From Clostridiaceae bacterium (GTDB taxonomy: Bacteria; Bacillota; Clostridia; Saccharofermentanales; DTU023), in contig JAAYRL010000050.1 in NCBI GenBank assembly GCA_012518795.1, forward strand, positions 62,001-126,000: a stretch of DNA of 64,000 nt. Reading direction: 5' to 3'. The position numbers were made by a program, and so were the translations under genes. The notes under the pieces were generated by a model that searched no databases, was not told the origin of the DNA, and saw only the letters and a list, made by a program, of their open reading frames with translations. Numbering within the stretch: position 1 is the first letter of the stretch; each line of letters starts with the position of its first letter. This document shows, piece after piece, positions 168 through 12,790 of this stretch.

Positions 168-1421
168 ATGGAAATAAAACGTGATTTATATTTACAGCAA
201 TTAATTGATCGTATGCATAACGGAATGATTAAAGTCATAACCGGTGTTAGGCGAAGCGGAAAGTCATATCTTGTTTTTAAGATTTTTAAAGAATATTTAC
301 TCGGCAATGGCATTGATCATAAACACATTATTTCGCTTGAATTGGACAGAATTGAAAATAAAAAGTATCGTAATCCGGATGTAATTTATGAATATATTAA
401 CAGTCAACTGATTGACAACCGAAAATATTATATTTTGCTTGATGAAGTACAAATGTTGAACGATTTTGAAGAAGTTTTAAATTCGTTACTATATAAAAGC
501 AATGTGGATGTTTATGTGACCGGCAGCAATTCGAAGTTTTTATCAAAAGATGTCATTACTGAATTTCGCGGCAGGGGGGATGAGATACACATCTATCCAC
601 TTAGCTTTCAGGAATTTATGAGTAAATATGATGGCGATATGTATCACGGTTGGGCTGATTATGTAACTTATGGCGGTTTACCGCTCATATTATCGATGAA
701 AAACGAAGAGCAAAAAATTAATTATCTAAATTCTCTTTTCACAGAAACATATATTAAAGATATAGTTGAAAGAAATCATATAGAAAAAGTTCAGGAATTG
801 AATGATCTGATCAATATTTTGGCTTCCGGCATTGGTTCTCTTAGCAATCCTTCAAAAATTTTATCAACATTCAAGAGCCGGCTTAAATCTGATATCAGTT
901 TAAATACTATTAGAGCATATATTGAATATCTTCAGGATGCTTTTTTGATTAATGAGGCTTATCGATATGATGTTAAAGGCAGGAAATATATCGGTACACC
1001 ACTTAAATATTATTTTGAAGATGTAGGTTTAAGGAATGCTCGATTAGGCTTTAGGCAAGTTGAAGAAAATCACGTTATGGAGAATATTATTTATAATGAA
1101 CTTCGATTTAGAGGGTATCAAGTAGACGTGGGTATGGTTGCCAAACGCTTTATCGATAAAGAAGGCAAACAAAGATCAAAACAATTAGAAATTGATTTCA
1201 TTGCAAATCTTGGCAGCAAAAGATATTATCTTCAATCAGCTTTTAGCATGCCTACAGAACAAAAAATCAATCAAGAAAAAGCACCCCTGATTAATGTAAG
1301 TGATTCTTTCAAAAAGATAATTATTGTAAAAGATGTAATCAATGTCCGCAGAGATGAATATGGAATAACTACAATGAGTATCTTTGATTTTTTATTAAAT
1401 GAAAATAGTTTAGAATTATAA
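168..1421 (+). CDS. AAA+ ATPase of the DUF4143 type
   Basis: A predicted ATP-binding protein with a P-loop AAA+ core and a C-terminal DUF4143-like nuclease-fold region. A Walker A motif GVRRSGKS lies at residues 26-33 of the chosen reading, and an LLDEVQ Walker B strand follows about 75 residues later. The rest matches the family pattern: VTGSNSKFLS sensor region, FRGRGDEI segment, and a C-terminal EIDFIA stretch typical of the restriction-endonuclease-like fold in this family. I chose the ATG at 168 over one 24 bases upstream because the family normally starts with a short MEIKRD-type helix; neither start has a strong ribosome site. The gene stands alone, convergent with rtcB. Family members are widespread, often mobile, and functionally uncharacterised, so the cellular role is unknown. 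Confidence 0.85.
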   Translation: MEIKRDLYLQQLIDRMHNGMIKVITGVRRSGKSYLVFKIFKEYLLGNGIDHKHIISLELDRIENKKYRNPDVIYEYINSQLIDNRKYYILLDEVQMLNDFEEVLNSLLYKSNVDVYVTGSNSKFLSKDVITEFRGRGDEIHIYPLSFQEFMSKYDGDMYHGWADYVTYGGLPLILSMKNEEQKINYLNSLFTETYIKDIVERNHIEKVQELNDLINILASGIGSLSNPSKILSTFKSRLKSDISLNTIRAYIEYLQDAFLINEAYRYDVKGRKYIGTPLKYYFEDVGLRNARLGFRQVEENHVMENIIYNELRFRGYQVDVGMVAKRFIDKEGKQRSKQLEIDFIANLGSKRYYLQSAFSMPTEQKINQEKAPLINVSDSFKKIIIVKDVINVRRDEYGITTMSIFDFLLNENSLEL

Positions 1422-1525
1422 ATAATGAGTGAATAATGGCATTTTGATTGGAAATCACGTTCTCAGAAGGCCTTTTATCTTCTGAAAATGCGTTGCCAAA
1501 ATTGCTCTAAGCGAAATCTGTAGCA

Positions 1526-2776
1526 TCAAGCTTTGAAATTGTAAATAGGTTTCATGATATCTATGATGTCTACAGATTCTCTAATTGCATCAATAATATC
1601 TTCTAATGCCTTATATGCCATGGGAGCTTCATCAAGGGTTGAAGCTTTGACTGAAGTTGTATAAATACCTTGCATTTCTTTTTTGAAGTCTGCTAAAGAA
1701 ATTTCTGATTTGGCTTTAGTCCTCGACATAATTCTGCCGGCGCCATGCGGAGCAGAATAATTCCATTCCGGGTTTCCTTTGCCGTATGCCAAAATAGAAC
1801 CGTCTCTCATATTGATCGGTATCAGAACTTTTTCTCCTTTTCTGGCAGAAATTGCCCCTTTTCGCAAGATCATTTCTTTTGTATCAATATAGTTATGGAT
1901 TGTGTGGAAACCATCTGTGCCGGCAAGACCGGTTTTATCCAAAATAATTTCAACCATTCTTTCTCGATTTCTTTTCGCATAGTTTTGGCAAATTTCAACG
2001 TCATGTAAATAATCATCCATATATTCACCGTACAAGAAACATAAATCTTCCGGTATAGTGGGTTCTTTCTTTGTCCAATATAAATTTTTAAGAGCTGCCT
2101 GGATTTCTTTGCGTCTGCCTTGTGCTTTGTAGAATTCGATAATTTGATCTCTTTGTTTAAAATAAGTTTCTTTGCCTTTATGTAAATCAATTGCCAATTT
2201 CTGATAAAGATCAGCAACTTGTTTACCGAGATTTCTGCTTCCGCTATGAATTACCAAGTAATTTGTTCCATCTCCGGCTCGATCAATTTCAATAAAATGA
2301 TTGCCGCCACCAAGAGTGCCGATGCTGCGTTGAATTCTTGGGGTGTTGTTTAAGTATCTATAGCATCGCATATCGGTTAAATTGAAGCTTTCTGTACGAC
2401 TTTCCCAGACGTTTTTACCGGAAGGAATATAATGTGCAATTCTATCAATTTTTTTCAAGTCGATATCATTTTTACCCAAGTTTACCGTGTACATACCACA
2501 GCCGATATCTACACCGACAACATTAGGTACAACTTTATCTTTGATAGTCATGGTAGTTCCGATTGTACATCCTTTACCATAGTGCACGTCAGGCATGATA
2601 CGGATTTTGCTACCCTTGGTAAATTCGTAATCACACATCCTTTTAATTTGTTGGATGGCATCTTCTTCAATTACTTTAGCAAAGCTGATTGCTGTATTAT
2701 ATTTTCCTTTGATTTCTAACATTTGTTCTACTTTCATTGAATTAGGAATTTCCGGACATTTCATGCAATATATCAT
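1526..2776 (-). CDS. rtcB: RtcB-family RNA ligase
   Basis: RtcB ligases join RNA 2',3'-cyclic-phosphate (or 3'-phosphate) ends to 5'-OH ends using Mn2+ and GTP. The family signatures are all visible: VDIGCGMYTV with the metal-binding Cys93, GTLGGGNHFIEI around His158, IHSGSRNLG around His175, and PHGAGR near the C terminus, whose His is the guanylylated residue in characterised enzymes. At about 416 residues it belongs to the shorter bacterial branch. Several in-frame ATGs occur near the start (residues 1, 5, 14 and 19); none has a clear Shine-Dalgarno site, so the N terminus is uncertain and may begin at MLEIKGKYN, which resembles the usual family start. No archease or Rtc regulator lies next to it, so the substrate (tRNA or rRNA repair) cannot be inferred. 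Confidence 0.9.
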   Translation of the reverse strand: MIYCMKCPEIPNSMKVEQMLEIKGKYNTAISFAKVIEEDAIQQIKRMCDYEFTKGSKIRIMPDVHYGKGCTIGTTMTIKDKVVPNVVGVDIGCGMYTVNLGKNDIDLKKIDRIAHYIPSGKNVWESRTESFNLTDMRCYRYLNNTPRIQRSIGTLGGGNHFIEIDRAGDGTNYLVIHSGSRNLGKQVADLYQKLAIDLHKGKETYFKQRDQIIEFYKAQGRRKEIQAALKNLYWTKKEPTIPEDLCFLYGEYMDDYLHDVEICQNYAKRNRERMVEIILDKTGLAGTDGFHTIHNYIDTKEMILRKGAISARKGEKVLIPINMRDGSILAYGKGNPEWNYSAPHGAGRIMSRTKAKSEISLADFKKEMQGIYTTSVKASTLDEAPMAYKALEDIIDAIRESVDIIDIMKPIYNFKA

Positions 2777-3019
2777 AGAACAATTTAGTTGTCATCTTGC
2801 CTCTGGTCTTCTGTTTTAAAGCTGACATGATGAATTGAAGTTGATGAAAGTCAGGAAGTTTTGTAAATTAGCTATATCTTACTGATAATATAAAAAAGAA
2901 TAATATCCAAAGTATAATCCGAATTAAAATTTAAGTAGTAATATAAAACTACAATATATTAAATTAAAATGTGGAACAAAAATCATGCTTCAAATAAATG
3001 GAATTATTTAGGAAATGAA

Positions 3020-3754
3020 ATGGAACGTATTGATAAAATTTTGGCGAAATCCGGTTACGGAACGCGTAAAGAAGTAAAGCAATTACTAAAAGATGGCAGA
3101 GTTGATTTAGCCGGAGAAGTAATAACTGATGCAAGTTTCAAAATTTCGGAGAAAATGTTCAAACAAATTTCAGTTGACGGTAACAAAGCGGAAATTCATA
3201 GTTCGTTGACTTTTATGCTAAACAAACCTGCAGGTTTTATCACAGCTTTATCCGATAAACGTCATAATACGATAGCTGAATTTATTCCGCAAAAATGGCG
3301 AAACAAAGGACTTGTACCGATCGGTCGTTTAGATAAAGATACCGAGGGATTGTTATTGCTGACTAATGACGGTCAATTGTCGCATCGAATTTGTTCACCA
3401 AAATGGGAAATTGAAAAAGAATATCATCTAATAACTCAAGGTCGTCCATTTGACCAACAAGATGTTATTAACTTTGCTCAAGGTTTCAAAACCCTTGACG
3501 GAACTGAATTCAAACCTGCCAAACTGAAATTGGTTGATGGATTTGAGGCTTATCTTACAGTTTACGAGGGACAGTATCATCAGGTAAAGCGGATGGCGAA
3601 ATCTACAGGACGAGAAGTCAAATATCTGAAACGGATCCGTATCGCTGATTTAGAACTGGATCCTGCTTTGGAACCGGGCGAAATCCGCATACTCACAGAC
3701 GATGAACGTGACAAATTATATTTATCCTGTCAACTTGCTAAATTAGAGTTGTGA
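3020..3754 (+). CDS. RsuA/RluB-family pseudouridine synthase
   Basis: A predicted rRNA pseudouridine synthase. An N-terminal S4 RNA-binding domain (MERIDKILAKSGYGTRKEVKQLL) is followed by the catalytic domain with the motif GRLDKDTEGLLLLTNDG, whose first Asp is the family's catalytic aspartate. A further motif, EGQYHQVKRM, is typical of the RsuA/RluB/RluE/RluF group. I chose the ATG at 3020 because it opens the S4 domain and has AGGAAATGA just upstream; the longer frame from 2969 adds a non-conserved leader. The window has another member of this group at 27626. The protein length (244 residues) is normal, and the target uridine (16S or 23S) cannot be told from sequence alone. Confidence 0.88.
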   Translation: MERIDKILAKSGYGTRKEVKQLLKDGRVDLAGEVITDASFKISEKMFKQISVDGNKAEIHSSLTFMLNKPAGFITALSDKRHNTIAEFIPQKWRNKGLVPIGRLDKDTEGLLLLTNDGQLSHRICSPKWEIEKEYHLITQGRPFDQQDVINFAQGFKTLDGTEFKPAKLKLVDGFEAYLTVYEGQYHQVKRMAKSTGREVKYLKRIRIADLELDPALEPGEIRILTDDERDKLYLSCQLAKLEL

Positions 3755-4148: not shown

Positions 4149-5261
4149 GTGAAAAATTTAAAGAAAATCTTAGTTCTAGTACTTGCTTTAGTTATGATGA
4201 TTTCAGTTGTAACTGCATGTGGTGGTGACAAGAAAGACGAAAAAGAAGAAAAAGAAACTAAAGAAGAAGTAAAAAAAGAAGAAAAAACCGAAAAAGAAAC
4301 TGAGAAAGAAACCGAAAAGGAAACCGAGAAAGAAACCGAAAAGAAAACTGAGAAAGAAACCGAAAAAGAAACCGAAGTTGAAGTTGAAGAAACTGAAGCA
4401 GAAGCTCCTGCCGGCGAAATGACCGGACAAATTAATGTTTATACCCGTGATGCCGCATCAGGAACTCGTGAAGGTTTTGAAAGTGTTGTCGGTTTTAAAG
4501 ATCAATTAACCGATAATGCTAATGAAGTTTCCTCAAATGGTGACATGGCAACCAAAGTTGGCGAAGACGCTCAAGGTATCGGTTATGTTTCATTAACAAC
4601 AGATTTTGAAGCTAATAATTTGCAACCGGCAGATTATGAAGGCGTAGAACCTTCAGTCGAAACCGTAATTGACGGTTCTTATCTTTTAAGCCGTCCTTTC
4701 TGCTATACAACACGTGCAGAAGGCGACTATGAAAGTGATGAATTAGAACAATTAGTCAAAGCTTTCATCGTATTCTTGACTGAATCAACCGAAGGTAAAG
4801 AAGCTGTTTTAAGTGCCGGCGGAATCGTTGATGTAGAAGATAGTACACCCTGGGATGAACTCAAAGCTGATCATCCGATCGTTGATCAAGATAATTCAGG
4901 TCTCACTATTACAACCGGTGGTTCGACATCAGTTGAAAAATCCTTGAATGCTGCTTTGGAAGCCTTCCAACCTTTAGCAGGCAACTTTGATAAAGTTGTA
5001 AACCAAACAGGTTCAGGTGACGGCTGGAAACGTACATTAGGTGATGATAAAGACGGTCCTAACGCTTCCGATATCGGATTTGCTTCACGTAACTTCAAAG
5101 ATGAAGAGCCGACAGAAGATGCTATGAGTGCCGATAAATATTGTGATGATGCTATCGTAGTAGTTATTGAAAAGAACAACCCTGTGACAAACTTTACTCA
5201 AGAAAATTTATTTGATATCTTCACAGGTGCAGTTACCAATTGGGAAGATATTGCTAAATAA
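4149..5261 (+). CDS. pstS: Phosphate-binding lipoprotein PstS, circularly permuted
   Basis: The extracytoplasmic phosphate-binding protein of the Pst ABC transporter. It starts at a GTG behind CTGGAGG. A lipoprotein signal peptide ends in the lipobox VTAC (Cys24). Residues 30-88 form a highly charged linker of repeated KETE units that should hold the domain off the membrane. The ligand-binding part is in unusual order: residues 94-230 (NVYTRDAASGTREGFE... through LTESTEGKEAVLSAGGIV) match what is normally the C-terminal half of PstS. Residues 251-370 (LTITTGGSTSVEKSL, DIGFASRNFKDEE, NNPVTNFTQENLFDIFTGAVTNWEDI) match the normal N-terminal half. This is a circular permutation, not truncation, since both halves and the phosphate-contact motifs are present. 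A strong stem-loop follows the gene. Confidence 0.9.
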   Translation: MKNLKKILVLVLALVMMISVVTACGGDKKDEKEEKETKEEVKKEEKTEKETEKETEKETEKETEKKTEKETEKETEVEVEETEAEAPAGEMTGQINVYTRDAASGTREGFESVVGFKDQLTDNANEVSSNGDMATKVGEDAQGIGYVSLTTDFEANNLQPADYEGVEPSVETVIDGSYLLSRPFCYTTRAEGDYESDELEQLVKAFIVFLTESTEGKEAVLSAGGIVDVEDSTPWDELKADHPIVDQDNSGLTITTGGSTSVEKSLNAALEAFQPLAGNFDKVVNQTGSGDGWKRTLGDDKDGPNASDIGFASRNFKDEEPTEDAMSADKYCDDAIVVVIEKNNPVTNFTQENLFDIFTGAVTNWEDIAK

Positions 5262-5331: not shown

Positions 5332-5360
5332 GTTTCAGTAGTTTCTAAAACTACTGAAAC
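5332..5360 (+). other. Stem-loop between pstS and pstC
   Basis: A perfect 13-bp inverted repeat (5332-5344 with 5348-5360, loop of 3 bases) lies in the pstS-pstC gap. No T-run follows, so it is not a standard terminator. An RNA hairpin here could stabilise the pstS message or reduce read-through, which would give the excess of binding protein over permease usual for ABC importers. That role is inference. Confidence 0.6.
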
Positions 5361-5382: not shown

Positions 5383-6342
5383 ATGACTACTGAACAACAA
5401 AATAAAAATAAAACTTTAATAAGAGAACGGTCTGCAAAGCGCCGTTCTCTTTACAAGTCTGTCGATCGTACTATGCAATTTATTTTCCGCCTATGCGGAT
5501 TGATTGCTGCATTGATGATTATTCTGATTGTATTTTTCGTAGCTGCACGCGGTATTCAGGTTTTCTTACCGGGCTATGAAAATCCCGTTTCATTGGGAGA
5601 GTTCCTGACGGGTATGAGATGGCGTAGTGATCAAGGTGTTTACGGTGTATTATTTATCGTAATTAATACAATTATCACGGCTTTTTTTGCCGGATTAATT
5701 GCTTTCCCCTTATCTGTATTATCAGCTTTAATGATCGTAAAAATTGCTCCGAAAAGATTAAGTAATGCTTTAACCACTGTTGTTGAATTGTTAGCGGCAA
5801 TACCTTCAGTTGTTTACGGTGTTTTTGCCTCAGGTGCCATTACCGATATTGTTGAAAAAATGGCGGGATGGTTTAACTATACCACCTTCGGTGGTAACTC
5901 GATGTTGGCAGTTATTCTTTTGTTGGCAATAATGATTTATCCGACCATAACTTCGATGGCTGTAGTTGCAATTCGTGCAGTTCCTGAAAGTCATGAGCTA
6001 GGTTCATTGGCACTCGGTGCTTCCAGAACACAGACCAACTTTAAGGTTGTACTTTCATCTGCAAAATCAGGTATATTTGCCGGACTTATTCTCGGTTTAG
6101 GACGAGCATTCGGTGAAGCGACCGCTGTTTCAATGGTTGCCGGCAATGCCTTCGTCGGGCCGACTTGGAATCCGTTTGATTTAACCAGAACATTAACTAC
6201 AACAATGCTGTCGGGTTTACATGAAACAGTAGGTGTCGATTATGACGTACGTTTCTCGGTCGGTATTGTATTAATGATCATTATTTTGATTACTAATTTA
6301 GCGATCAATGCATTACGTAAAAAAATGGAGTCGGGAGATTAG
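5383..6342 (+). CDS. pstC: Phosphate ABC transporter permease PstC
   Basis: One of the two membrane subunits of the Pst phosphate importer. The sequence has an N-terminal basic stretch, a first membrane segment at about residues 34-57, and then five more hydrophobic segments. The binding-protein-dependent permease signature with the EAA-type loop is seen around ESHELGSLALGASRTQTNFKVVL. The motif LLAAIPSVVYGVFA is typical of PstC. Length (319 residues) is normal. The start is an ATG behind GAGAG. It follows pstS by 121 bases and precedes pstA by 113 bases; both gaps carry inverted repeats. Confidence 0.95.
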   Translation: MTTEQQNKNKTLIRERSAKRRSLYKSVDRTMQFIFRLCGLIAALMIILIVFFVAARGIQVFLPGYENPVSLGEFLTGMRWRSDQGVYGVLFIVINTIITAFFAGLIAFPLSVLSALMIVKIAPKRLSNALTTVVELLAAIPSVVYGVFASGAITDIVEKMAGWFNYTTFGGNSMLAVILLLAIMIYPTITSMAVVAIRAVPESHELGSLALGASRTQTNFKVVLSSAKSGIFAGLILGLGRAFGEATAVSMVAGNAFVGPTWNPFDLTRTLTTTMLSGLHETVGVDYDVRFSVGIVLMIIILITNLAINALRKKMESGD

Positions 6343-6455: not shown

Positions 6456-7745
6456 ATGAATAGAATAAGAATAATAAAAGATAGAATAGCTGAAGGCTTA
6501 ACTTGGCTGTCATCCGGCATTTCAGCTCTTGTGCTGATTGCGATATTCGTGTTTATTTTTAAACGTGGTTGGTCTACATTAAACTGGGATTTGTTAAAAA
6601 ACAATTACAATTCAGAAAATCTGATGGCAGGTTATGATCATATCGATTGGGATGAGCATGGTGCTTTCGCAGCTCCCGATACACTCCCTGAGAATGCATT
6701 CTTTTCGGAAAAATACGGCGTAGCCTTTGTAGACAGCGTTAGTGCGGCAAAAGAATCACAGATGGAAGTTGTTTTTCTTGATCCTGAATCACCTTTACAA
6801 GATGGTAAAATCACAACTGCCGGACCCAGACAAGGTGATAAACTCGGTTTGGAAGAAGGGCTATATCTGAAAAAAATATCCTACATCAATCTTGAAGGTG
6901 ACAAGAAATCTGCCGGTTTAACTGCAACTCAAGGTAAAACTTCTGAAGAATTAGTTTCAGTCTTAGATAATGATTCGCAAGAAGTGGTTGACTTCTATGC
7001 TCAAACTGAAGGCGGCGGACTTAAAGGTTCCATCATTACAACTTTGCTGTTGATTGGTCTTACTTTAATTATTGCTTTACCGATCGGTGTTTTTGCTGCA
7101 ATTTATTTACATGAATTAGCCCCGAAAAATAAACTTACAGCTTGGATCAGATCTTCAATTGAATTATTGTCAGGTGTTCCGAGTGTTATCTTCGGTCTAA
7201 TGGGAATGACAATGCTATTTCAAGTTACTCGTTTGATGGGCATAACAGGACAAAGTACGATGTTAGGTGCATTAACTTTAGCAGTAATCCTTTTGCCTGT
7301 TATAATAAGACAAACCGAGGAAGCTTTGATCAATGTTCCCGACGGATATAGAATGGCTAGTTTGTCAATGGGTGCTACTCAATTTCAAACAATATATAAA
7401 ATTATCATTCCTAATGCTATGCCGGGTATTTTAAGTGCAACACTTTTGTCGATCAGTCGAATTATCGGTGAGTCGGCAGCTTTGATCTTCACTATGGGAA
7501 CGGCGATTATGGATAATCCGGCTTGGAATACACGTGGTACTTCTCTAGCGGTACATATATGGACAGTTATGAGTGGAGAACAACCGAACTTTGAACTTGC
7601 TTCAGCAATTTCAATTGTTATTTTGATTATTGTCTTGATTTTGAATGTAAGTGTAAAATACCTTACTTATCGTATGACAAGAGATAAAGATGATCAGAAA
7701 AAGAAGAATACAAAAGTAAAAGTAAAAGCTACAACTGAAACCTGA
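6456..7745 (+). CDS. pstA: Phosphate ABC transporter permease PstA with enlarged external loop
   Basis: The second membrane subunit of the Pst importer. After a first membrane segment (about residues 18-36) there is a hydrophilic stretch of roughly 145 residues (42-188) before the transporter core starts at GGGLKGSIITTLLLIG. PstA proteins are usually 280-300 residues; the extra length here (429) lies almost wholly in this stretch, predicted to face outside. The core has LLSGVPSVIFGLMGM and the EAA-type loop VPDGYRMASLSMGATQFQTIYKIIIP. The C terminus is rich in lysine. The insertion has no family I recognise; it might contact the unusual PstS, but that is speculation. Confidence 0.93.
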   Translation: MNRIRIIKDRIAEGLTWLSSGISALVLIAIFVFIFKRGWSTLNWDLLKNNYNSENLMAGYDHIDWDEHGAFAAPDTLPENAFFSEKYGVAFVDSVSAAKESQMEVVFLDPESPLQDGKITTAGPRQGDKLGLEEGLYLKKISYINLEGDKKSAGLTATQGKTSEELVSVLDNDSQEVVDFYAQTEGGGLKGSIITTLLLIGLTLIIALPIGVFAAIYLHELAPKNKLTAWIRSSIELLSGVPSVIFGLMGMTMLFQVTRLMGITGQSTMLGALTLAVILLPVIIRQTEEALINVPDGYRMASLSMGATQFQTIYKIIIPNAMPGILSATLLSISRIIGESAALIFTMGTAIMDNPAWNTRGTSLAVHIWTVMSGEQPNFELASAISIVILIIVLILNVSVKYLTYRMTRDKDDQKKKNTKVKVKATTET

Positions 7746-7859: not shown

Positions 7860-8639
7860 ATGACACAACAAGTACAAGTAAAAACTGATTATGCGTTTGA
7901 TATAAAAGATTTGGATCTTTTCTATACGGATTTTCACGCATTAAAGAAAATTAATATGCAGATTCCTTTAAATAAAGTTACTGCTTTTATAGGTCCATCA
8001 GGCTGTGGGAAATCAACCTTGTTACGTTGTTTTAATCGTATGAATGACTTAATTGAAGGTGTGAGAATTGAGGGCGAGATTTACCATCACGATGTTGAAA
8101 TTCATAGTAAAGAAGTTGATGTTGTTCAATTAAGAACGGAAGTCGGTATGGTATTTCAACAACCGAATCCCTTTCCTATGTCAATATATGATAATGTGGC
8201 TTATGGACTGCGTTGCCAGGGTGTCAGGGATCGCAAAATATTAGATGAAGTTGTTGAAACCTCTCTAAAACAGGCTGCACTTTGGGACGAAGTGAAAGAT
8301 CATCTCAATCGCAATGCGACCAAGCTTTCCGGCGGTCAGCAACAAAGGCTATGTATTGCCAGAGCAATTTCTTTGACTCCGGAAGTTATTCTGATGGATG
8401 AACCAACCTCAGCTCTTGATCCGATTGCAACAAATAAAATTGAAGATTTAATTACCGAGTTGAAAGAATCGTATACAATAATAATTGTGACGCATTCAAT
8501 GAGTCAAGCGGCACGTGTAAGTGACATGACAGCTTTTTTCCTTTTGGGAGATATGATCGAATATGACGTTACGGATAAAGTTTTTCATAATCCTAGAGAT
8601 GAAAGAACTGAAGATTATATTTCTGGAAAGTTTGGTTAA
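7860..8639 (+). CDS. pstB: Phosphate ABC transporter ATPase PstB
   Basis: The ATP-hydrolysing subunit of the Pst importer. It shows Walker [10 protein letters not shown], the Q-loop in [23 protein letters not shown] (a PstB hallmark), the ABC signature [14 protein letters not shown], Walker [14 protein letters not shown], and the switch His in [16 protein letters not shown]. The length of 259 residues is normal. It starts at an ATG behind GAAGGAG. It is followed 64 bases later by phoU, as in most bacteria. Confidence 0.97.
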
Positions 8640-8703: not shown

Positions 8704-9405
8704 ATGTCTCAACGTGTAAATTATCAAAAAGAATTGGAGAGCTTACATCAAAGCATGATCCGTATGGGTTCCGATGTTGAAGAATCCATTCATTTAGCAG
8801 TTCTTGCTTTAACTGAAAATGATGTTGAATTAGCAACAAAAGTAATCGATCGTGATGATGTTATTGATGAACAAGAACGCAAGATAACCCAAGATTGTAT
8901 TTTGCTAATAGCCCGTCAACAACCGGTTGCCAGTGATTTGCGCAGCATTGCAGCTAATATGAAGCTGGTCACTGATTTGGAAAGAGTAGCTGATCATGCT
9001 GAAGATATTGCGGAACATGTTGTCTTTTTAAATGATAAAAACTATAGTGTTATTGTACCGCATGATGTTGTAAAATTGACGGAGCATACATCGAAGATGA
9101 TTCATGCTGTTTTAGATGCCTATGTTGAGAGTGACTTAGAAAAAGCAAAACAAGTAGTCATGATGGATATTCGTGTCAATGCTCTCTATGGCAAATTGAA
9201 AAAATATCTCGTGCGTCAAATGAAACTTGATCCGAATGTTGCACCGGCAATGGTTGAAATGTTACTGGTTTGCAAGCACTTGGAACGAATAGGTGATCAT
9301 GCGAAAAATATTGCGGAATGGATTGTTTATTTTATTGAAGGTGAATATGTAACATCTGCTGAAATCCGAAGAGAAGCCGAAGCAAGTGAAAAAGACAAGG
9401 AATAG
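8704..9405 (+). CDS. phoU: Phosphate signalling protein PhoU
   Basis: PhoU relays the transport state of PstSCAB to the PhoR kinase and limits phosphate uptake. The sequence contains two three-helix PhoU repeats, each with the metal-binding signature: LERVADHAEDIAEH in the first half and LERIGDHAKNIAEWIVY in the second. An N-terminal YQKELESLHQSMIRMGSDVE segment is typical. Length (233 residues) is slightly above the usual 215-235. The start has AGGAGAAAGG upstream. The gene ends two bases before the response-regulator start, which supports co-transcription and functional coupling. Confidence 0.96.
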   Translation: MSQRVNYQKELESLHQSMIRMGSDVEESIHLAVLALTENDVELATKVIDRDDVIDEQERKITQDCILLIARQQPVASDLRSIAANMKLVTDLERVADHAEDIAEHVVFLNDKNYSVIVPHDVVKLTEHTSKMIHAVLDAYVESDLEKAKQVVMMDIRVNALYGKLKKYLVRQMKLDPNVAPAMVEMLLVCKHLERIGDHAKNIAEWIVYFIEGEYVTSAEIRREAEASEKDKE

Positions 9406-9407
9406 CA

Positions 9408-10178
9408 GTGGGAGAGCAATCATTTGTCGTTGTTGTAGAAGACGATCAATCAATAGCCGAATTAATCCGTTACAATCTTGAAAGTGAAGGTTATCAAGTT
9501 TTGCACGTTGAATCGGGCGATGAGTTGTTCCAAAAACTAAGCCGGGAAAAACGGAATGTTGATCTCTTTCTTCTGGATGTTATGTTGCCGGGTATTGATG
9601 GATTTGAGATTTGTCAGACACTCAGGAAAAACAAGAAATATTTCTGGTCATCTTTTTTATTTTTGACTGCACGTTCAACAGAGAAAGACAAGTTGGAAGG
9701 CTTTAATGCCGGGGCAGATGATTTTTTAACGAAACCTTTCGGAATGAGAGAATTATTAGCGAGAGTGAAAATTCTGGTCAATCGGAGCAAGGAACGGGTG
9801 GCTTTGAGTGAAGGCCAGACGTTTCAATCCGATCCGGTTGCCGGCAAATCTGAGTCACCGGAAAATGAAATTATCTCTATTGGCGAAATAACTTTAGATG
9901 ATGCCAGACATCGTGTTTATGTAAATGATCTTGAAGTTTCAATGACTCATCGTGAATATGAATTGCTTAAATTTCTTATGCAAAATAGTGGTTTGGCTTT
10001 TACCAGAGATGATTTGTTAAATCATGTTTGGGGTTATGAGTATAGCGGGGAAACTAGAACAGTCGATGTTCATATTCGTCAATTACGTCGTAAAATTGAA
10101 ACTGATTCTTCTAAACCGATTTATATCCAAACGGTACGAGGTGTCGGATATCGTTTTGCTGAAATAGATGATGGTTGA
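9408..10178 (+). CDS. phoP: PhoP/PhoB-type response regulator
   Basis: An OmpR-family DNA-binding regulator. The receiver domain carries the acidic pair EDD at residues 11-13, the phospho-acceptor Asp57 in FLLDVMLPG, and the conserved Lys in LTKPFG. The C-terminal winged helix ends in TVRGVGYRF. It begins at a GTG just after the phoU stop and precedes its kinase by 38 bases. Being inside the pst operon makes phosphate response the most likely role. The direct repeats upstream of pstS (3828) and of the Na+/phosphate symporter (43134) are the natural candidate binding sites; this link is inferred. Confidence 0.9.
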   Translation: MGEQSFVVVVEDDQSIAELIRYNLESEGYQVLHVESGDELFQKLSREKRNVDLFLLDVMLPGIDGFEICQTLRKNKKYFWSSFLFLTARSTEKDKLEGFNAGADDFLTKPFGMRELLARVKILVNRSKERVALSEGQTFQSDPVAGKSESPENEIISIGEITLDDARHRVYVNDLEVSMTHREYELLKFLMQNSGLAFTRDDLLNHVWGYEYSGETRTVDVHIRQLRRKIETDSSKPIYIQTVRGVGYRFAEIDDG

Positions 10179-10216: not shown

Positions 10217-12067
10217 ATGAAAAAACGCTTACGAATATTGGGAAACATTGTAATCATTTTAGCAATAACCATAGTTTCAATTTTGAATTATCGAGAACTA
10301 AGATCAAAACTCATTCAAAGTAACGAGAATTACTTAGCCAATATTACATCTTTTTTTGATCGTGCATTAAGTCATAATATAGAGAAATCAGGCTCTAATG
10401 ATGATTTTGCAACAATTGATGAGAATGAGGAATCAAGTCAGACGGAAATTACCGACCAAAGAAGTACTGAAAATAGTAATGTGACTCAAGAATTGCTTGA
10501 GCAAACAATTGGTCTGACATTTGAAACTTTTAATGTTTTAACGTCGGATTTACGAATTACCGTAATGGATGAAACCGGTAAAGTTCTTGCAGATAGCAAT
10601 TTCCCGGGTGATAAATTGAATAATCACCGAGCCAGACCTGAAGTCTGGGGTGTGATTTCCGGTGAAGAAAGCCACTCTAATGTGCGTTTTTCGAATACAG
10701 AATCTGTTGAGCGTCTATATTTTTCAGCCAGATCCACTCATGATAATATGATTGTCAGAGCGGCGGTGTTAATGGACTTCTTATCTAATGCCGCCTCGAC
10801 AATTACACTTTCCGGCTTTATTATCGGTGTTGCAACATTAGTGCTATTCAATTTAGTTTTACACTTATTATTCAAAAAGCAAGATAAACATCAGGCTGAT
10901 TTAGAGAAAGTTTTAATAAAACTTGAGTCCGGGGATTTGTCCGCCAGGATGGAAGAAGATCGTAATACTTTTGCCAATTATCGCAAGTTTGCCGAAAATT
11001 TTAATCAGACTGTTACGAATTTCGAACATGATTTCAATGAAATGCAGGCAGGACGAGCATGGCTTGAAGAAATGGTTAATTCACTAATGGAACCCCTAGT
11101 CGTAGTGAATAATGACCTGCAAGTAGTTTTTGCCAATAAATATGCCAAAACTCTATTCAACCGGGACATTGATCCTATAGAAAATCCTTATCCTTTCGTG
11201 CTGTTAACGCATGAAGACAAATTAGACGATCTTTGTCAACAAGTTCTTAACAATGGCAAAACTGTACGTAAGGAATTTAAATTGCAGGTAACCGGACGTT
11301 ATAATGCTTTCCAAGTTATGCTTTCTCCAATTGATGTGGATCATGTAGTTGTGTTGTTTAATGACATTTCCGCTGAATACGAGGCTCGTGAACTACGGTC
11401 CAGCTTTGTAGCAAACGTAACTCATGAATTGAAAACGCCCTTAACTTCTATTAGAGGTTTTGTTGAGACTTTGCGTAATCGCAACAATACTGCACCTGAA
11501 CAGGTCAATAATTTCTTGGAAATCATCGATATTGAAGCAGCCCGACTAGAACGATTAATCAATGACATTTTGCGTCTATCGGATATTGAACGCTTAAACA
11601 ATGATTCTGAAATGGAAGATTTTGATTTGGTCGAATTATTAGATGAATGTTTAGTTCAATTAGATGATCAAGCCAGTGAAAAACAAATCAATCTGATTCC
11701 GAGTGATGATCCTACATTTTTGCCGGTTAAAGCGAATCGTGATCGAATTAAACAAGTGTTACTGAATTTATTAGAGAATGCGATTAAATATCATCGCAAG
11801 AAAGGTAATATTTGGATTGATCTGAAGCGCAAAGGAAGATTTGTCACAATCAAAGTTAAAGATGACGGTTATGGCTTTGATGAACAATCTGCCAAAAGAG
11901 TCTTTGAACGTTTTTATCGTGTGGACAAAAGTCGTTCTCGTATGCTTGGAGGTACCGGCTTAGGTTTATCAATCGTTAAGCATATTGCTTTATTGTATGA
12001 CGGTGAAGCCAGTGTTAAAAGTATACCTGATAAAGGTAGTACTTTTAAAGTTATGTTGAAAATCTAG
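10217..12067 (+). CDS. phoR: PhoR-type sensor histidine kinase
   Basis: A membrane sensor kinase paired with the regulator immediately upstream. The first membrane segment is at about residues 7-24 and the second at about 197-219; between them lies an external domain of some 170 residues. A HAMP-like region, a PAS-like domain (about 285-385) and the kinase core follow. The phospho-accepting His403 is in SSFVANVTHELKTPLTS. The N box reads LLNLLENAIKYH and the G boxes DDGYGFD and GGTGLGLSIVKH. Length (616 residues) is typical of Gram-positive PhoR. In the known system PhoU and Pst restrain this kinase when phosphate is plentiful. Confidence 0.9.
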   Translation: MKKRLRILGNIVIILAITIVSILNYRELRSKLIQSNENYLANITSFFDRALSHNIEKSGSNDDFATIDENEESSQTEITDQRSTENSNVTQELLEQTIGLTFETFNVLTSDLRITVMDETGKVLADSNFPGDKLNNHRARPEVWGVISGEESHSNVRFSNTESVERLYFSARSTHDNMIVRAAVLMDFLSNAASTITLSGFIIGVATLVLFNLVLHLLFKKQDKHQADLEKVLIKLESGDLSARMEEDRNTFANYRKFAENFNQTVTNFEHDFNEMQAGRAWLEEMVNSLMEPLVVVNNDLQVVFANKYAKTLFNRDIDPIENPYPFVLLTHEDKLDDLCQQVLNNGKTVRKEFKLQVTGRYNAFQVMLSPIDVDHVVVLFNDISAEYEARELRSSFVANVTHELKTPLTSIRGFVETLRNRNNTAPEQVNNFLEIIDIEAARLERLINDILRLSDIERLNNDSEMEDFDLVELLDECLVQLDDQASEKQINLIPSDDPTFLPVKANRDRIKQVLLNLLENAIKYHRKKGNIWIDLKRKGRFVTIKVKDDGYGFDEQSAKRVFERFYRVDKSRSRMLGGTGLGLSIVKHIALLYDGEASVKSIPDKGSTFKVMLKI

Positions 12068-12246: not shown

Positions 12247-12315
12247 TTACTTATCTTTACATAAATAAACTATTTGTTTACAATGAATACATGTAGTCGA
12301 TTCGGAGGTGATACT

Positions 12316-12543
12316 GTGCCTACTTCAGTCAGATTAAGTGAAGAAACAAATCAAAGATTAGATCGATTGGTAAAACGTACCGGTCGCTCAAAAGCTTTTT
12401 ATTTAAGACAACTTATTGAATCCGGTTTGGATCAACTAGAGTATGAATACGACATTTTACAAGATGTTTCTGACTACAGAGCAGGAAAATTAGAAACATA
12501 TTCTATTGAGAAAGTAAGAGAAAACTATGGCTTGGAAGATTGA
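12316..12543 (+). CDS. relB: RelB/ribbon-helix-helix antitoxin
   Basis: The antitoxin half of a type II toxin-antitoxin pair. The N-terminal segment TSVRLSEETNQRLDRLVKRTGRSKAFYLRQLIESGLDQLE is a ribbon-helix-helix DNA-binding fold, and the acidic C-terminal part should wrap the toxin. I chose the GTG at 12316 because GGAGG lies 8 bases upstream and because it opens the conserved fold; a longer frame from 12274 lacks a ribosome site. It is 75 residues. The toxin gene overlaps its last 17 bases, the usual arrangement for tight co-expression. Antitoxins of this class usually repress their own promoter. Confidence 0.88.
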   Translation: MPTSVRLSEETNQRLDRLVKRTGRSKAFYLRQLIESGLDQLEYEYDILQDVSDYRAGKLETYSIEKVRENYGLED

Positions 12544-12790
12544 GTTTTCACCAAGGGCTTTTAAGGCGTTTAATAAAATAGACAAATCTTCGGCAATCAG
12601 GATTCTTGCTAAACTTGAAGAAATATCTAACTTAAAAGATCCAAAAGAAACAGGATCCCCTCTAACCGGTATTTTATCAGGCTTATGGCGATACAGAATA
12701 GGGGATTATAGGGTTATCTGTTCTATCGAATATGAAACAATAGTTATATTTGTTGTAGATATTGGGCATCGAAGAGATATTTATCGTTGA
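12527..12790 (+). CDS. relE: RelE/ParE-type toxin
   Basis: An 87-residue RelE-superfamily protein. The pattern matches the family: MAWKIEFSPRAFKAFNKIDKSSAIRILAKLEEI, then a central LSGLWRYRIGDYRVICSIE and a C-terminal IVFVVDIGHRRDIYR with the basic residues and final Tyr characteristic of ribosome-dependent mRNA endonucleases of the RelE type. The gene overlaps the antitoxin by 17 bases. Intact key residues suggest activity, but RelE versus ParE (gyrase target) cannot be decided with certainty from sequence; the C-terminal HRR-Y favours RelE. Confidence 0.88.
   Translation: MAWKIEFSPRAFKAFNKIDKSSAIRILAKLEEISNLKDPKETGSPLTGILSGLWRYRIGDYRVICSIEYETIVIFVVDIGHRRDIYR

Follow-up and report, generated by a model that had tools for sequence, protein, structure and literature searches.

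The first gene of the pst operon in the DNA that we analyzed (the window, 64,000 nucleotides in all) encodes a PstS whose two halves occur in swapped order, and its product is very probably a functional lipoprotein that binds phosphate, namely a PstS with a circularly permuted chain. Permuted PstS is a known kind of protein that seems not to have been discussed; what is apparently new is the window's type (class I) together with an insert in the permease subunit PstA.

Organization of the pst Operon and the pstS Gene

The operon is complete (pstSCAB-phoU-phoB-phoR) and contains the only PstS, PstC, and PstA found in the genome. Downstream of pstS (4149–5261, plus strand), and on the same strand, lie pstC (5383–6342), pstA (6456–7745), pstB (7860–8639), phoU (8704–9405), and genes for a PhoB/PhoP-type response regulator (9408–10178) and a PhoR/PnpS-type sensor histidine kinase (10217–12067). 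PstC, PstA (over residues 184–407), PstB, and PhoU scored over the cut-offs of TIGR02138, TIGR00974, TIGR00972, and TIGR02135, respectively. A 13-bp inverted repeat between pstS and pstC (5332–5360) has no T run on the plus strand and may stabilize the pstS transcript. Elsewhere in the window are an ordinary toxin–antitoxin pair (a ribbon-helix-helix protein and a ParE-type toxin, 12274–12790) and, on the minus strand, a gene for an RtcB-type RNA ligase (1526–2776).

The pstS gene starts with GTG, just downstream of a Shine-Dalgarno-like TGGAGG, and encodes 370 amino acids. An earlier reading of the sequence alone (the sequence-only reading) had the protein fixed to the membrane by a KETE-repeat linker, and the N terminus bears this out: a signal peptide with the lipobox VTAC (4149–4220; detected in a lipobox scan, with the Cys at residue 24) is followed by an acidic/lysine KETE-repeat linker of about 67 residues (4221–4418), which leads from the lipid anchor to the binding domain and varies in both length and letters among relatives. 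The binding domain begins with what is the C-terminal half of a normal PstS (the B half; YTRDAASGTRE ... RPF ... AGGIVD, approximately residues 91–228, 4419–4832), continues through a junction linker that connects the old C terminus to the old N terminus (VEDSTPWDELKADHPIVDQDNSGL, 4833–4904, a class I signature in our linker table), and finishes with the N-terminal half (the A half; GSTSVEK ... DIGFASR ... IFTGAVTNWEDI, residues 253–370, 4905–5258).

The Two Halves of PstS Occur in Swapped Order

The PstS model TIGR02136 matched the window protein twice, first with profile positions 163–290 (E = 5.8e-20) and then with positions 39–168 (E = 1.7e-18), placing the C-terminal half at about residues 94–225 and the N-terminal half at about residues 252–368. 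With significant matches to both, the halves of the PstS domain are complete, as had been claimed, and their swapped order was confirmed with PF12849, with PDB sequences, and by fold prediction. The score against TIGR02136 (131 bits) was below the curated cut-off (206.6, for one chain in normal order) and hence formally below membership, which is expected because the halves are swapped; PF12849 exceeded its cut-off (85.7 versus 27). A profile of the permuted proteins matched PDB entry 4h1x as a single stretch (2–279, E = 1.2e-50), and the normal PstS proteins that it matched over both halves were matched in two swapped stretches.

The genome is a draft in 54 contigs, and an assembly or gene-prediction artefact, with the normal half lost nearby, might be thought to have produced the permuted order. 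We regard the chance of this as negligible: a profile search of the genome found no second PstS or leftover PstS half, and the same order recurs in 21 class I genes, complete or nearly so, from the window's taxonomic order (the window's included), in L001–L005, in a further 53 or so genomes of the class, in plasmid records, and in one crystal structure. Misassembly and a split gene are ruled out by these independent genomes.

Predicted Fold and Known Relatives

AF2 run with six close relatives only, a shallow alignment, gave a model with a pLDDT of 49, which was discarded. A second alignment, to which halves of viral PstS had been added, gave a model with a pLDDT of 91.9 and a pTM of 0.86. Its best match in the PDB was S. 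pneumoniae PstS2 (4h1x), with 287 colinear columns (E = 5e-24, TM 0.75/0.82), whereas normal-order PstS structures matched over about 90 columns (4gd5, rmsd 1.3; 1twy_E) or, in the case of 4q8r compared over the whole length, poorly (TM 0.38–0.42). The superposition that the sequence-only reading had proposed as a check thus gave an end-to-end match with a protein of the same order, and matched normal-order PstS only half by half or poorly. On the strength of the predicted model we take the permutation to be real, but the fold is not new, because 4H1X is already a crystal structure of a permuted PstS. The sequence-only reading, which knew of no study of the layout, had not been aware of this structure; we found no paper that discusses a permuted PstS layout in the literature searched.

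S. pneumoniae PstS2 (SP_2084) shares its order and cut point with the window protein and is colinear with it at full length in both sequence and fold; the two are about 26% identical, and the 4H1X linker is shorter (class II). The normal-order PstS of C. perfringens (4Q8R/4GD5) has the same halves and motifs (each half with an E value of about 1e-25) in the opposite order. For MglB-2 (Tp0684) of T. pallidum, a circularly permuted glucose-binding protein, the authors suggested that permutation may serve to adapt a protein to tethering, and they proposed a permuted subclass (PMC4990184). MglB-2 resembles the window PstS in being an ABC binding protein that is naturally permuted and tethered; unlike it, MglB-2 is a cluster B (type I) sugar-binding protein of another fold class, and the sequence and fold matches of the window protein go to PstS, not to cluster B. 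Glycine betaine- and molybdate-binding proteins are reported to make up a circular-permutation family (PMC2395249). The glycine betaine-binding protein OpuAC (2B4L), a member of this family and the second-best fold match, has the same chain order as the window PstS, but the likeness is weak (TM 0.48), the ligand is different, and the two are not homologous at the sequence level here.

Probable Phosphate Binding by the Permuted Protein

The R/SGTR, GS.S, and ASR residues, the S of the GSG loop, and a D were invariant in 11 divergent members. The GS.S, GSG, ASR, and R..SGTR residues are those assigned as phosphate ligands in PstS structures. One might also consider a permuted PstS-like protein that binds a different ligand or acts as a sensor and does not serve in phosphate uptake, in view of the divergence of class I (a branch of 1.42 in the tree) and of an insertion near the DIGFASR motif of its A half. 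We give this little credence, as the phosphate-loop residues are invariant and the protein, encoded with pstC, pstA, pstB, and phoU, is the sole PstS and belongs to a complete pst-phoU-phoBR operon.

For the phosphate-binding PstS that we favor, we infer phosphate binding, transport, and an altered tether geometry. The old N and C termini are joined through the 24-residue linker, and the chain starts just before the RDAASGTRE strand and ends just after TNWEDI. It would fold into the usual two-lobed clamp, hold phosphate between the lobes, and pass the bound phosphate to PstC/PstA/PstB; owing to the swap, the domain would be tethered to the membrane at its SGTRE end instead of its GSTS end.

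Distribution of Permuted PstS

We distinguished class I, the window's type with its own 24-residue linker, from class II, the S. pneumoniae (4h1x) type. A third, divergent permuted sequence (L075 in G204), whose PstC/PstA branch adjoins class II (92/90), was omitted from both counts. Searches of genomes of the order, class, and phylum detected class I in the window's own order only. Class II was present in about 53 of the 291 genomes of the class, a number counted from the match list, in which ORF lengths exclude tandem dimers and individual ORFs were read only in part. About a dozen of the 399 genomes of the phylum had a single full-length permuted match, of the 4h1x type (class II). Class II also occurs in Monoglobus pectinilyticus and on a Treponema saccharophilum plasmid, in both cases at the head of a pstCAB-phoU operon; the plasmid (L247, pTS2) is that of a spirochaete, and the presence on it of a permuted, class II-like pst operon may reflect horizontal transfer. 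No permuted relative was found by A2 in viral contigs, and scans of these contigs seeded with normal PstS returned a few proteins, in normal order. The suggestion that the layout may be common to a clade, made with reference to some Lachnospiraceae binding proteins, was right, and the spread across genomes of the class and phylum and across plasmid records is far wider than that family.

Class I PstS Co-occurs with an Insert in PstA

In class I PstA, the first transmembrane helix is followed by an insert of about 130 residues (about residues 49–184 in the window protein, 6600–7007, plus strand). This insert, absent from ordinary PstA, corresponds to the enlarged external loop of the sequence-only reading, and the usual topology of such permeases would place it on the extracytoplasmic side. 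Profile searches found no Pfam or PDB match for it; a resemblance to a PDZ domain, seen by eye, had no Pfam or PDB profile support and is not claimed. PstA proteins encoded beside normal, class II, or dimer PstS were without the insert, and the class II operons examined thus have an ordinary PstA, in contrast to the window.

The insert profile matched 28 of the 188 genomes of the order and, among the 399 of the phylum, the window's own genome alone. All 28 genomes of the order also hold class I PstS sequence, which is complete or nearly so in 21 and partial, at a contig end or gap, in 7. No clear class I PstS was found in an insert-free genome among the 188; one genome (G460) has a 62-residue fragment that is not assignable to a class. 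Two genomes (G047 and G058) each contain two operons, one of the normal kind, which lacks the insert, and one of class I, which has it.

The co-occurrence is suggestive of a functional pairing. The 28 genomes represent one evolutionary event, because the class I operons form one clade in the PstC/PstA tree. This single event, together with the finding of class II permuted PstS beside insert-free PstA, would fit an insert that is unrelated to PstS and has stayed with class I only through block inheritance of the operon, a reading to which we give an even chance. Against it, both features are retained in genus g4, although pstS there is separated from pstCAB and neighbors a phosphoglycerate mutase gene (G015 and G021, read directly). 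At three loci (L236 in G015, L242 in G009, and L243 in G021), class I pstS adjoins the phosphoglycerate mutase gene and not pstC, and the signal peptide is without a lipobox. A more tentative proposal, which we think rather unlikely, regards class I as a phosphate importer of a distinct kind, whose permuted PstS and additional extracytoplasmic PstA domain evolved to match each other. If this were true, the insert would serve to hold the binding protein on the permease or to position it there, and the pairing could explain both the loss of the lipid anchor in one lineage (genera g4 and g5) and the unlinked pstS in one genus, with the two parts retained.

Origin of the Permutation

For the PstS trees, the halves were put back into normal order before building. 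Class I and class II each formed one clade (support 100/100 and 100/98), and the free tree placed the classes apart, so that two changes would be needed. An independent origin of the two classes is also favored by the PstC/PstA tree, which likewise splits them, and by the junction linkers, which are about 24 residues long and conserved (WDELKADHPIVDQDNS-like) in class I and 12–15 residues long in class II. However, a single permuted clade was not rejected by the AU test (p-AU 0.366 for PstS, 0.44 and 0.51 for the halves alone, and 0.146 for PstC/PstA), and the two classes are cut at exactly the same site. We put the probability that the permutation took place twice at slightly under one half.

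Duplications of the sort that a duplicate-and-trim origin requires are indeed found. Two pst operons (L073 in G370 and L074 in G413) encode fused normal-order A-B-A-B PstS dimers of 544 and 531 amino acids, each a single lipoprotein; G046 has normal-order pstS duplicates side by side; and G019 has two adjacent permuted pstS genes. The first pst-operon gene of L040 (G052; 479–3448, reverse strand) encodes a (B-A)x3 lipoprotein of 990 amino acids with three tandem permuted PstS domains. In G044, of the same genus as G052, a contig ends inside pstS, as a repeat would cause. A 701-amino-acid "double" frame in G019 was rejected as a fusion, being two neighboring genes read through a stop. In the tree, the A-B-A-B dimers are not the nearest relatives of either permuted class, and they therefore demonstrate that such an intermediate is possible but do not identify it as the ancestor. 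We infer an origin by duplication: most likely, a tandem pstS duplication would have given an A-B-A-B chain, from which the first A and the last B were then lost.

Implications

The class II PstS proteins of M. pectinilyticus and T. saccharophilum are named only "substrate-binding domain-containing protein" in RefSeq, because a swapped-order PstS falls below the standard PstS model, and surveys of phosphate uptake may miss such proteins in many Clostridia. With normal, fused-dimer, permuted, and triple-permuted PstS all present in one phylum, the route to a natural circular permutation is directly testable. The insert of class I PstA is an undescribed domain, and it may reveal the way in which a permease becomes adapted to a binding protein that is tethered differently.
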